A stretch of DNA of 64,000 nt from an uncultured Planktomarina sp. (GTDB taxonomy: Bacteria; Pseudomonadota; Alphaproteobacteria; Rhodobacterales; Rhodobacteraceae): contig CALSQF010000010.1 of the NCBI GenBank assembly GCA_943788425.1, positions 1-64,000 on the forward strand, written 5' to 3'. The notes beneath the pieces are model-generated. The model was not told the DNA's origin. It ran no database searches and saw only the letters and a list, made by a program, of their open reading frames with translations. Made by a program: the position numbers and the translations under genes. This document shows positions 41,137 through 44,322 of the stretch, piece by piece; positions within the stretch are counted from its first letter, which is position 1, and the number at the start of each line of letters is the position of its first letter.

Positions 41137-41940
41137 GTGGCAAATGTTTCTCAATACGGCGCAAGACGCTTCGGACGGGTCAATTGGCTGGGCCTTTGGA
41201 CGCTCATTCGCCGCGAGAATATGCGCTATCTGGCGATCTGGCAGCAGACAATTTTTGCTCCGTTGATAACTGCTGGTTTGTTTCTATTGGTTTTTTCTAT
41301 TGCCATAGGTCCGGGCCGCTCGGAAGTCATGGGGTTTGATTATGTCAGCTTTTTGGCACCGGGTTTATTGATGATGACGGTGATACAAAATTCTTTTGCC
41401 AATACCTCATCTTCCATGCTTTCGGCGAAAGTCATGGGGTCCATTGTCGATACGTTGATGCCGCCGCTGTCGCCCTTGGAAATGACCGTGGGATTCTTGG
41501 CGGGTGGCATTGGGCGCGGATTGGTGATTGGCGCAGTGCTCTGCCTGTCGATGGGATTAAGCCTCGGCATCTGGGTAGCTCATCCGCTTTGGACCTTGGC
41601 CTTTGTGGTTTTGGGGGGGATGTTCATGGGCGCGCTGGGGCTTTTGGGCAGCATCTATGCGTATAAGTTTGATCAAATGGCTGCGATCTCAAATTTTGTG
41701 ATCACACCCTTGGCATTCTTGTCTGGAACCTTTTATTCGATCCAAGCCTTGCCCTCCATGATGCAGCCACTGATCCATGTGAATCCGATGTTTTATATCA
41801 TCGACGGCGGTCGTTACAGTGTTCTGGGGGTTTCAGATGGCAGCCCGTGGGTGGCTTTGGCGGTGATTTGTGGCGCCAATATATGTGCGGTGGGCTTGGC
41901 TTGGGTTTGGTTGGCACGGGGCTATCGGTTGAAATCTTAG
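41137..41940 (+). CDS. ABC-2 type transporter permease
   Basis: 267 residues, six membrane helices, matching the ABC-2 permease family (LIRRENMRYLAIWQQTIFAPL start; FLAPGLLMMTVIQNSFAN; ISNFVITPLAFLSGTFYSIQALP). GTG start with GGAGA upstream. The partner ATPase is not adjacent, so the transporter is completed elsewhere in the genome. Substrate unknown. Confidence 0.85.
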   Translation: MANVSQYGARRFGRVNWLGLWTLIRRENMRYLAIWQQTIFAPLITAGLFLLVFSIAIGPGRSEVMGFDYVSFLAPGLLMMTVIQNSFANTSSSMLSAKVMGSIVDTLMPPLSPLEMTVGFLAGGIGRGLVIGAVLCLSMGLSLGIWVAHPLWTLAFVVLGGMFMGALGLLGSIYAYKFDQMAAISNFVITPLAFLSGTFYSIQALPSMMQPLIHVNPMFYIIDGGRYSVLGVSDGSPWVALAVICGANICAVGLAWVWLARGYRLKS

Positions 41941-41968
41941 TGGGATTTGCAGCAGCAGATATTTGGAC

Positions 41969-41997
41969 TTCCCATGGCCGGGGGGCTTTGGTATGAT
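41969..41997 (+). promoter_or_regulatory. Putative promoter of the arg leader/argD-argF
   Basis: -35-like TTCCCA (41969-41974), 17-bp spacer, -10 TATGAT (41992-41997; 5/6). A start seven bases downstream would fall on the A of the leader-peptide ATG at 42004, so the leader message could be leaderless. Confidence 0.4.
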
Positions 41998-42003
41998 AAC
42001 GGT

Positions 42004-42048
42004 ATGAAAACGATAATTGAATTGACATTGCGACGCCGACGTCGCTGA
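42004..42048 (+). CDS. Candidate arginine leader peptide (attenuator)
   Basis: A 14-codon ORF, MKTIIELTLRRRRR, ends in five consecutive arginine codons (CGA CGC CGA CGT CGC) just before its TGA. It sits 100 bp upstream of argD-argF and is followed 14 bases later by a hairpin with a T run. That is the architecture of ribosome-mediated attenuation, where stalling at arginine codons senses charged tRNA-Arg. There is no clear Shine-Dalgarno; the promoter placement suggests leaderless translation. Function is inferred from position and codon content. Confidence 0.6.
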   Translation: MKTIIELTLRRRRR

Positions 42049-42061
42049 TATGATCACCGCA

Positions 42062-42083
42062 ACGAGGCATGCCCCTCGTGTTT
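42062..42083 (+). terminator. Candidate attenuator terminator upstream of argD
   Basis: ACGAGGcatgccCCTCGT (6-bp stem, 6-base loop) then GTTTTG, between the arginine-rich ORF and argD. A weak upstream partner, CATTGCG (42027-42033), could pair 6/7 with CGCAACG (42059-42065) and compete with it. No clean antiterminator is obvious by eye. Confidence 0.5.
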
Positions 42084-42148
42084 TGCGCTCCTAGGCCTCT
42101 GTCCCAATTTTAGTTTTCTCACTCCCACCTCATTAGAAAGGTATTCCG

Positions 42149-43327
42149 ATGATCCCTTCGATTCTGCCCACCTATAATCGCGCGCCGATGTCGTTTGTCT
42201 CCGGCACAGGCAGTTGGTTGACCAGCGATGACGATCGGCGATTTTTGGATCTCAGCGCTGGGATTGCGGTCAACAGCTTGGGGCATGCGCATCCGAAACT
42301 GGTGGCGGCGCTGACGGCGCAAGCCGGTCAATTGTGGCACACATCCAATTTGTACCATATTCCAGCTCAACAAAAACTCGCCGATCAGCTGGTGGCTTTG
42401 ACCTTCGCCGACACGGTATTTTTTACCAATTCTGGGACAGAGTCTTGTGAGTTGGCCGTGAAAATGGCGCGCAAATATTTCTATGACAAAGGACAACCTG
42501 AGCGCGTGGAAATTATTGCCTTTGAAGGGGCGTTTCATGGGCGTTCCTCTGCAGGTATTGCGGCTGCTGGTGCAGAAAAGTTGACAAAAGGCTTCGGGCC
42601 CTTGCTGCCCGGCTTTGTGCAATTGCCATTCGCCGATCACGACGCGCTGCATGCGGCTGTTAACGACAAGACCGCAGCCGTATTGATTGAACCGATCCAA
42701 GGGGAGGGCGGCATCCGCCCCGTGCCGGATCATTGTTTGAAGGGTTTGCGCGATTTTTGTGACAGTCATGGGATCTTGCTGATTTTTGATGAGGTGCAAT
42801 GCGGTGTTGGACGGACCGGGAAGTTGTTTGCCCATGAGTGGGCAGGGATTGATCCAGATATCATGATGGTGGCCAAAGGTATTGGTGGAGGCTTCCCCAT
42901 AGGGGCCGTTTTGGCAACTGAAGAGGCCGCAAGCGGCATGGGGGCGGGTACGCATGGCTCAACTTATGGCGGGAACCCTTTGGGCTGTGCGGTGGCAAGT
43001 GCTGTCTTGGACGAGGTGGCTGCTCCGGAGTTTTTGGCAGAGGTGAGCCGCAAAGCCGGGGCGCTGCGCCAAGGGCTTGAGGGGTTGGTCGCGCAATACC
43101 CGGATGTGTTTGAGGGTGTGACTGGCGCAGGGTTGATGCTGGGTCTGAAATGCAAGGCGAGCAATATCGATGTTGTCACAGCCGGATATGACTGTGAGGT
43201 TTTGACCGTGCCTGCGGCCGATAACGTTGTGCGCGTTCTGCCAGCGTTAAATATCTCAAACACCGAGATTGCGCAGGCGCTCGAGCGATTGGAGACGGCG
43301 GCGCAAGCGGTTCAATCTGCGCAATGA
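42149..43327 (+). CDS. argD: Acetylornithine aminotransferase
   Basis: 392 residues, class III PLP aminotransferase. FFTNSGTESCELAVKMARKYFY, the aspartate segment LIFDEVQCGVGRTGKLFAHE and the PLP-lysine motif MMVAKGIGGGFPIGAVL are present. Converts N-acetylglutamate semialdehyde to N-acetylornithine. AAAGG precedes the ATG. Followed after 71 bp by argF, the usual alphaproteobacterial pair. Confidence 0.94.
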   Translation: MIPSILPTYNRAPMSFVSGTGSWLTSDDDRRFLDLSAGIAVNSLGHAHPKLVAALTAQAGQLWHTSNLYHIPAQQKLADQLVALTFADTVFFTNSGTESCELAVKMARKYFYDKGQPERVEIIAFEGAFHGRSSAGIAAAGAEKLTKGFGPLLPGFVQLPFADHDALHAAVNDKTAAVLIEPIQGEGGIRPVPDHCLKGLRDFCDSHGILLIFDEVQCGVGRTGKLFAHEWAGIDPDIMMVAKGIGGGFPIGAVLATEEAASGMGAGTHGSTYGGNPLGCAVASAVLDEVAAPEFLAEVSRKAGALRQGLEGLVAQYPDVFEGVTGAGLMLGLKCKASNIDVVTAGYDCEVLTVPAADNVVRVLPALNISNTEIAQALERLETAAQAVQSAQ

Positions 43328-43398: not shown

Positions 43399-44322
43399 AT
43401 GCAAAATTTTCTCGATATCGATCAGGTTGATCCACAAAAATTGCGTGGCATTTTGGACGAGGCCGCGCGGATCAAAACCGCGCGTGCTGGTCTGTCCAAG
43501 GGCATGTTGGATGCTGAACGCCCACTAGAGGGCAAGATGGTGGCGTTGATTTTTGAAAAGCCATCCACACGCACCCGTGTGAGTTTCGATCTCGGGGTGC
43601 GGCAGATGGGCGGTCAGACCATGGTTTTGTCCGGCAGTGAGATGCAGTTGGGCCATGGGGAAACCATTGCGGATACAGCGCGGGTCTTGAGCCGTTATGT
43701 GGACATGATCATGATCCGCACTTTTGAAGAGGCGACGCTGCTTGAAATGGCCGAATATGCCAGCGTGCCAGTGATCAACGGGCTAACGAACCGCACCCAT
43801 CCATGCCAAATCATGGCCGATATTTTGACGTTTGAAGAGCATCGCGGCTCTATACAGGGCAAGCGCGTCGTCTGGACGGGTGATGGCAACAACGTTTGCG
43901 CGAGCTTCATCCATGCCGCCGGCCAATTTGGCTTTGATTTCGTGTTCGCTGGCCCTGCGACGTTGGATCCTGAGGCGGAATTCATTGAAAAGGCGCGGGC
44001 CAAAGGCGTGAAGATCGAGATACAGCGGGATGTGCAAGAGGCGGTGCGCGGTGCAGATCTATTGGTGACCGACACTTGGATCTCTATGCATGACAGCCAA
44101 ACGGCGCGGGAACGGCGCCACAATCAATTGCGCCCCTATCAGGTCGATGATGCATTGATGGCACAGGCCAAGCCAGATGCTCTTTTCATGCATTGCTTGC
44201 CAGCACACCGCAACGAAGAGGTGACAAGCTCCGTCATGGATGGGCCGAATTCGGTGGTATTTGATGAGGCGGAAAACCGGTTGCATGCGCAAAAGGCGAT
44301 TATGCGCTGGTGCCTAGACTAA
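43399..44322 (+). CDS. argF: Ornithine carbamoyltransferase
   Basis: 307 residues. Carbamoyl-phosphate loop [30 protein letters not shown], and ornithine-binding [14 protein letters not shown] are all intact. Forms citrulline from ornithine and carbamoyl phosphate. Co-directional with argD and probably under the same leader. Confidence 0.96.

Follow-up and report, generated by a model that had tools for sequence, protein, structure and literature searches.

The 14-codon upstream open reading frame (uORF) that precedes argD in an uncultured Planktomarina sp. is, as judged by comparison with related bacteria, a real and conserved element, one of a group of short ORFs that lie before argD in the window's family, the Rhodobacteraceae (the window being the whole analysed stretch of 64,000 nucleotides, from contig CALSQF010000010.1). 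Through the arginine codons of this uORF, this bacterium, like many related ones, probably uses the ribosome to measure its arginine supply. Leader peptides of this kind are already known; what is new is one placed before argD, for which we propose an unusual mechanism acting at the 5' end of the mRNA. A preliminary description of this DNA had interpreted the region as a ribosome-mediated attenuator made of leader ORF, hairpin and T run, and the switch worked by the uORF probably differs from that one. The leader-peptide part of this first reading is strongly supported by the evidence below. The terminator part finds no support in the window and is weak elsewhere.

The leader ORF is confirmed as it was first described, as an ORF of 14 codons ending in five consecutive Arg codons. 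Positions 42004-42048 read ATG AAA ACG ATA ATT GAA TTG ACA TTG CGA CGC CGA CGT CGC TGA, and 100 bases separate the end of the uORF from the following gene, putatively argD, the name first given to it. The gene after that is presumably argF (Table 1).

Table 1. Features of the argD leader region and the genes that follow it, in window coordinates.
Feature	Coordinates	Strand	Sequence or description	Basis
Predicted promoter	41989..41997	+	extended -10 TGGTATGAT; hexamer TATGAT 41992-41997	sequence, prediction
uORF, predicted leaderless	42004..42048	+	14 codons, MKTIIELTLRRRRR; TGA stop 42046-42048	sequence, frame tests
5' strand of 5'-end-closing helix	42006..42019	+	uORF start, GAAAACGATAATTG	inverted repeat, predicted fold
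Hairpin inside the Arg codons	42030..42045	+	GCGACG/CGTCGC	predicted folds
Arg run, proposed ribosome stall site	42031..42045	+	CGA CGC CGA CGT CGC, codons 10-14	sequence, codon statistics of relatives
Hairpin of the preliminary description, with T run	42062..42084	+	ACGAGG/CCTCGT, 42062-42067/42074-42079; TTTT 42081-42084	sequence
3' strand of 5'-end-closing helix	42105..42118	+	CAATTTTAGTTTTC, downstream of the hairpin	inverted repeat, predicted fold
Shine-Dalgarno-like site of argD	42135..42141	+	AGAAAGG	by eye
argD	42149..43327	+	acetylornithine aminotransferase family by name, 392 aa	close relatives found
argF	43399..44322	+	ornithine carbamoyltransferase by the name first given, 307 aa; next gene, same direction	

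Two collections of argD upstream regions were searched for short Arg-rich ORFs, a check that had been suggested along with the first reading. Set 1 comprised 137 regions, 125 in the window's family and 12 outside it, drawn from 70 places plus 67 that were roughly the best ArgD scorers among 386 genomes with ArgD, some same-genus repeats being passed over among the 67. Set 2 began as 80 loci, from which 2 duplicates and 1 cut-off locus were dropped to leave 77, and covers Ruegeria, Sulfitobacter, Roseovarius, Leisingera, Thioclava, Celeribacter and other genera. A uORF was defined as an ATG-initiated ORF of 6-30 aa (7-26 aa in set 2) with an Arg run, located at -220 to -80 from argD. Such a uORF with a run of at least three Arg codons (3-6 in all) occurs in 86 of the 125 family regions of set 1 and in 60/77 of set 2, and dinucleotide shuffles (2500) made for set 1 place the chance frequency of a run of at least three at about 1.2%. 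With at least two consecutive Arg codons the counts rise to 110/125 and 71/77. None of the 12 argD regions outside the family has a run of at least three. Tests described below as outside the genus omit the 18 loci of the window's genus, and the related sequences they compare are not independent of one another. The idea that the Arg leader is tied to argD is also borne out: the uORF was found before argD in 87/125 and 64/80 regions, and the three other arginine genes sampled practically lack it (argG 1/30, argC 1/28, argJ 0/30). What the comparison reveals, a conserved short ORF rich in codons for the end product and positioned before a gene of the pathway, is the pattern by which a leader peptide is recognised.

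A frame-blind test bears on whether the uORF is translated. It locates the DNA motif CGACGCCGACGC with at most two mismatches and asks how it stands relative to the best ATG that has a -10 element 6-7 nt upstream. The motif is present in 75/125 regions of set 1, of which 9 have no such ATG, and in the remaining 66/66 it is in frame with no stops between; in set 2 it is present in 62/77, 17 have no such ATG, and the frame agrees in 45/45, although in one of these a stop intervenes. This conservation of frame argues for translation of the uORF. It also bears on the proposal that the palindrome GCGACG-CCGA-CGTCGC is a DNA operator that merely reads as Arg codons, a reading to which we attach hardly any probability, even though its core CGACGCCGACGC is strongly kept as DNA (the same 75/125) and the window's copy is a palindrome. 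The distances from ATG to motif vary by multiples of three, and the mismatches fall mainly at third codon positions (31/44 in set 1, 17/25 in set 2). Furthermore, Arg runs are also kept in other spellings, and the commonest outside the window, CGACGCCGACGC (38 runs), differs from the window palindrome. On the frame tests, we reject the operator.

Codon choice within the run is narrow. With the genus of the window set aside, 132 uORFs have at least three consecutive Arg codons. Their runs contain 513 Arg codons, divided between CGA (245), CGC (239), CGT (28), AGG (1) and CGG (0), compared with 55% CGC, 21.7% CGG, 14% CGT and 7.1% CGA among the 1223 Arg codons of 79 argD genes. The first Arg is found at codon 10-12 in 111/132 uORFs and is CGA in 122/132. 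CGA, CGC and CGU are all read by tRNA-Arg ICG, which reads CGA poorly. With 512/513 of its codons from the CGA/CGC/CGT set, the run may serve as a natural probe of decoding, and we infer that ribosomes stall there when arginine is short. Codons 6-7 in other genera hold NAT-ATC at a fixed distance from the start; codon 6 of the 132 uORFs is CAT in 38, GAT in 12, TAT in 6, AAT in 2 and CAC in only 2, and is kept more as bases than as a residue.

The argD leader mRNA is probably leaderless, as the promoter positions across the family suggest. In the window, 6 nt separate TATGAT from the ATG, the best -35 at 17 nt is a weak TTCCCA (41969-41974), and TTTGGTAT is kept in 10/18 loci of the genus. The preliminary description had pointed out that this hexamer is placed for a start at the ATG itself, and a -10 at a similar distance is frequent in the family; the ATG is the predicted start. 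A -10 score of at least 8 is found 5-8 nt upstream of 80/111 uORF ATGs vs 26/661 other ATGs of the family, where the -10 score itself decided which in-frame candidate was counted as the uORF ATG; if the ATG nearest the Arg run is taken instead, the score is reached in 61/111, and in 49/70 loci with a single possible ATG. Consistent with this, alignment on the ATG reveals T at -35 (80%) and a T/A-rich -12/-11, that is, promoter coordinates counted from the ATG itself.

Outside the window's genus, a second element lies closer to argD. TTGAC is present between -85 and -38 in 175/187 regions (loci within L017-L217), with NCAY 17 or 18 bases after it in 133 of these and an A-rich stretch preceding, so that the TTGAC-NCAY element sits at about -60 to -25 before argD. 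Within the genus, TTGAC was seen there in only 2/18 loci (L015 and L016). TTGAC-N17/18-NCAY, whose -10 would be unusual, may be a further promoter of argD, and some of the argD transcripts of these genera would then lack the uORF. A stricter TTGAC..GGCACC pattern was found in 11/100 genomes, at least 4 times at argD, and no regulon was seen.

The conserved structure of the leader appears, from the comparison of relatives, to be a pairing of the first ~12-14 nt of the uORF with a segment between its stop and argD. In the window the two strands were found as an inverted repeat and are paired in the minimum-energy fold, and the helix core GAAAAC/GTTTTC recurs in the predicted folds of L001-L006. 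A second hairpin, within the Arg codons, is part of the folds of L001, L003, L004 and L005 and absent from those of L002 and L006; in our model the window's copy has P 0.99 in the free RNA and 0 with a stalled ribosome. Support for the long-range helix beyond single folds comes from partner-swap tests, in which the pairing energy of two segments within their own leader is compared with that between different leaders. The first 16 nt of the uORF pair with the 35 nt after the stop at -10.5 within the same leader vs -8.75 when swapped (n=94; 0/2000 permutations), and the same segments in set 2 give -10.35 vs -8.35 (n=71; 0/2000). A smaller effect of the same kind is seen between the Arg run and the bases that follow it (-8.18 vs -7.60; set 2 -7.88 vs -7.35; 0/2000 each).

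The position of the partner strand differs between leaders. The strongest signal is obtained when nt 1-12 are set against the 14 nt immediately preceding the next hairpin (z -8.0, n=83), and a second one when they are set against the 14 nt that follow this hairpin (z -3.7). These signals come from different leaders: in 42/83 the partner is just before the hairpin (z -8.5, with nothing after it), and in the other 41/83 it is after the hairpin (z -4.3), where the window's own partner also sits. In total, 151/165 leaders form a duplex of -7 kcal/mol or better, with the first paired base at nt 1-3 in 132 of the 151, and the distance to the partner strand varies widely (sd 11 nt from the Arg run, 12 nt from the stop). 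An alignment of 45 leaders with 17-codon uORFs gave a similar result, with the helix and Arg-run hairpin together beating 500/500 shuffles on five measures and slid registers on four, with one tie on the fifth; 7/8 helix pairs change on both sides, and 31% of helix cells are unpaired. The swap test is weak within the genus alone (far segment 68/5000, near segment 452/5000; n=17), where L001-L006 are nearly one lineage, and RNAalifold on 90 unevenly aligned leaders returned 0.0.

Other pairings were considered and set aside. A translation attenuator, in which the leader pairs with the argD ribosome site, was rejected when, in other genera, no upstream segment was found to pair preferentially with that site: there was no signal of Shine-Dalgarno sequestration for the SD or argD start windows, and the uORF start against the SD gave 169/2000 (set 2). 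Nor do we propose a hairpin after TTGAC in other genera; its arms co-vary in the swap test, but the columns form no single helix, and a looser test of the region as a whole gave no signal (1600/2000, set 2).

It is against this background that the hairpin of the first reading has to be judged. Classical transcription attenuation, in which stalling at the Arg codons swaps a terminator at 42062-42084 for an antiterminator, is in our view an unlikely account, although the layout of Arg codons, hairpin and some T fits it. The preliminary description had reported a hairpin with a T run before argD: the hairpin is present, at a position resembling that of the hairpin in other genera, while the tail is only TTTT and a terminator role is unsupported. 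It escaped a terminator scan with a threshold of 5 T in 8 bases and was picked up by another in which the tail is counted from a 5-pair stem. Taken by itself the hairpin is unremarkable: folding of 42004-42148 gives z = -1.76, a value equalled or bettered by 8/200 shuffles. Against an attenuator hairpin operated by the ribosome, the structure is unformed in the predicted folds of the five nearest relatives (L002-L006; by eye, one of its pairs is mismatched in L002), and in the window it stays formed, with P 0.91-0.94, in all four modelled ribosome states. Conservation of Arg codons and hairpin had been named as decisive for the first reading; the Arg codons are kept, and it is the hairpin alone that fails. 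The search among relatives for covariation in the window hairpin, also suggested at the outset, instead led to the 5'-end-closing helix as the conserved covarying structure.

Across the leaders, hairpins resembling terminators exceed the shuffled expectation by a modest margin, within the genus as well as beyond it. Hairpins followed by at least 4 T of 8 occur in 11/17 genus leaders vs 3.5 in shuffles (max 8) and in 38/94 leaders outside the genus vs 21.5 (max 31), which favours classical attenuation; such counts could also be inflated simply because some hairpin is conserved between the uORF and the gene. Requiring 5 T leaves 5/17 vs 2.6 (max 5) in the genus and 13/94 vs 7.2 (max 11) outside it, where 86% of leaders thus have no such hairpin. 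A clean antiterminator had not been seen by eye, and the partner-swap tests agree, finding no antiterminator pairing outside the genus. In four members of the genus (L003, L005, L009 and L013), energy alone would let the uORF start bind the 3' arm of the hairpin together with the T run, as classical attenuation would have it, but among the 83 leaders the uORF start gives no signal against either hairpin arm in either half (the arms were chosen by complementarity, which makes the arms' own z meaningless). An intrinsic terminator/antiterminator is therefore unlikely as the general mechanism, although an intrinsic terminator may operate in some lineages.

We propose instead that the argD uORF is a leaderless arginine sensor in which a stalled ribosome blocks re-initiation and so lets the 5'-end helix close, a model whose chances we rate as evenly balanced. 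The argD leader mRNA would start at the ATG of the short ORF, or within a base or two of it, and 70S ribosomes would translate the uORF without a Shine-Dalgarno site. Near codon 10-12 the ribosome would meet 3-6 Arg codons, nearly all CGA, CGC or CGU, and would wait there if tRNA-Arg were poorly charged. Stalled with the first Arg codon in its A site, it would cover about nt 14-43 (assuming a footprint from P-14 to P+15), leaving no room for a second start. The first ~12 nt would remain free to pair with the segment downstream of the stop, and the leader would be closed. When arginine is plentiful, ribosomes would clear the run, and new ones would repeatedly occupy the 5' end and prevent the helix. 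We infer that the closed leader would favour expression of argD(F) because it keeps Rho or RNases off the RNA, and that no choice between an intrinsic terminator and an antiterminator is involved. In other genera, the stretch from the hairpin to TTGAC contains little G (12%, with C 40%) relative to the region from stop to argD as a whole (G 23%, C 36%; 83 leaders), and could be a Rho loading site.

The elements of this model differ in standing. Comparison of relatives speaks for the coding nature of the uORF, its Arg run and codon set, the distance from start to run, the promoter position and the covarying helix; the stalling, the direction of the response and the step at which output is controlled are those that we would expect from them. 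In a footprint model of the 132 leaders, nt 2-11 pair with the region after the stop at a mean probability of 0.62 in the free RNA, 0.51 with a stalled ribosome, 0.42 with a ribosome at the stop codon and 0.00 with an initiating one. Stalling would therefore permit the closed form and continued initiation would forbid it; the stalled and stop states are nearly equal, so the model leans on blocked re-initiation. Further points count against it. In the window, modelled stalling lowers the helix from 0.76 (free) to 0.45; the partner strand lies at widely varying distances, the alignment and the swap test within the genus have the weaknesses given above, and terminator-like hairpins show their modest excess; and the possible TTGAC promoter of other genera would bypass the leader.

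If the proposed mechanism is true, the first bases of a leaderless mini-ORF would be both the landing site of the ribosome and one strand of a regulatory helix. The start codon itself would be part of the switch, an arrangement that suits leaderless mRNAs. The family also appears to do without the classical repressor domain: the ArgR C-terminal domain (PF02863) was found in 0/100 family genomes, the window's own included, and 8/14 control genomes have it. More tentatively, then, we suggest that a family in which ArgR was not found controls argD through a stalled ribosome that excludes the next one and frees the extreme 5' end, with no terminator flip. The argD leader is in any event a conserved candidate in which the exact bases to change can be named.

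Two further explanations were weighed. The uORF might be translated and yet do no more than hold argD expression, or the stability of its mRNA, at a constant level with no response to arginine, which we think improbable: folding predicts the 5'-closing helix whether or not a ribosome is stalled, as this would allow, and yet an Arg run drawn from one codon set, near codon 10-12 and before an arginine gene, would be left unexplained. Slightly less probable still is a product acting in trans, either the small Arg-rich peptide or the leader RNA, in the manner of rnTrpL/peTrpL. Such roles are described for the leaderless trp leader of S. meliloti (PMC10117765, PMC7298713), and if other genera do have a second promoter, their leader RNA need not be tied to argD. 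However, the peptide varies beyond its Arg run and codon 6 is kept more as NAT than as a residue, while the position before argD is constant and the sampled argG, argC and argJ have no such uORF.

Several known systems resemble parts of the argD leader, and none of them is the argD element. The trp leader of Sinorhizobium meliloti carries Trp codons; the argD leader has Arg codons and a 5'-end-closing helix in addition. The rnTrpL/trpL attenuator is otherwise close, being a leaderless ORF of 14 codons before a biosynthetic gene in an alphaproteobacterium (PMC10117765). In the Salmonella speF leader, ribosome pausing at the Arg codons of orf34 under low arginine changes the folding of the RNA, with outputs through Rho and RNase G that differ from those of a simple intrinsic attenuator (PMC6386406). 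The speF leader ORF shares consecutive Arg codons with the argD uORF; it has 34 codons, a Shine-Dalgarno site and two consecutive Arg codons within a long leader, and precedes an ornithine decarboxylase gene in gamma-proteobacteria (PMC6386406), whereas the argD uORF is predicted to be leaderless, has 3-6 Arg codons and contributes its 5' end to a helix.

Within the Rhodobacterales themselves, the uORFC-8-2 motif before cysS has been proposed to act by ribosome-mediated attenuation at Cys codons (PMC8632094). It shares with the argD leader the bacterial order and a short uORF with codons for the relevant amino acid; it has two Cys codons, a tRNA synthetase gene as target and a U run in all consensus cases (PMC8632094), whereas U-run hairpins occur in a minority of argD leaders only. 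Arginine sensing by a leader peptide, as proposed at argD, is known from rbfL of Staphylococcus aureus, which relies on slow decoding of Arg codons; rbfL occludes the ribosome site of the gene that follows, uses the rare AGA/AGG codons of tRNA-Arg(UCU) and regulates a transcription factor (PMC13009471). Searches of the open-licence literature revealed no account of an argD-linked Arg leader in this family, and the preliminary description, too, knew of none in roseobacters. Rfam covariance models, any speF-type leader among them included, gave 0 matches up to E = 1 in window positions 41700-42400 and 8 relatives.

Finally, some minor observations concern the distribution of the element. The pattern ATGA..CGACGCCGACGC has 25 matches in 18/61 genomes, 3 of them at argD, and by eye the matches elsewhere are at about the chance level in genes. 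No uORF with even two adjacent Arg codons lies within 300 bases of argD at the family loci L012, L051, L069, L080, L081, L086 and L111. At L006 (G001), a decayed Arg run, MKTMIEITLRCRRS, is located from about 146 to 101 bases before argD; its predicted fold no longer contains the Arg hairpin, and the far strand of the helix is altered too, providing a natural loss for comparison.
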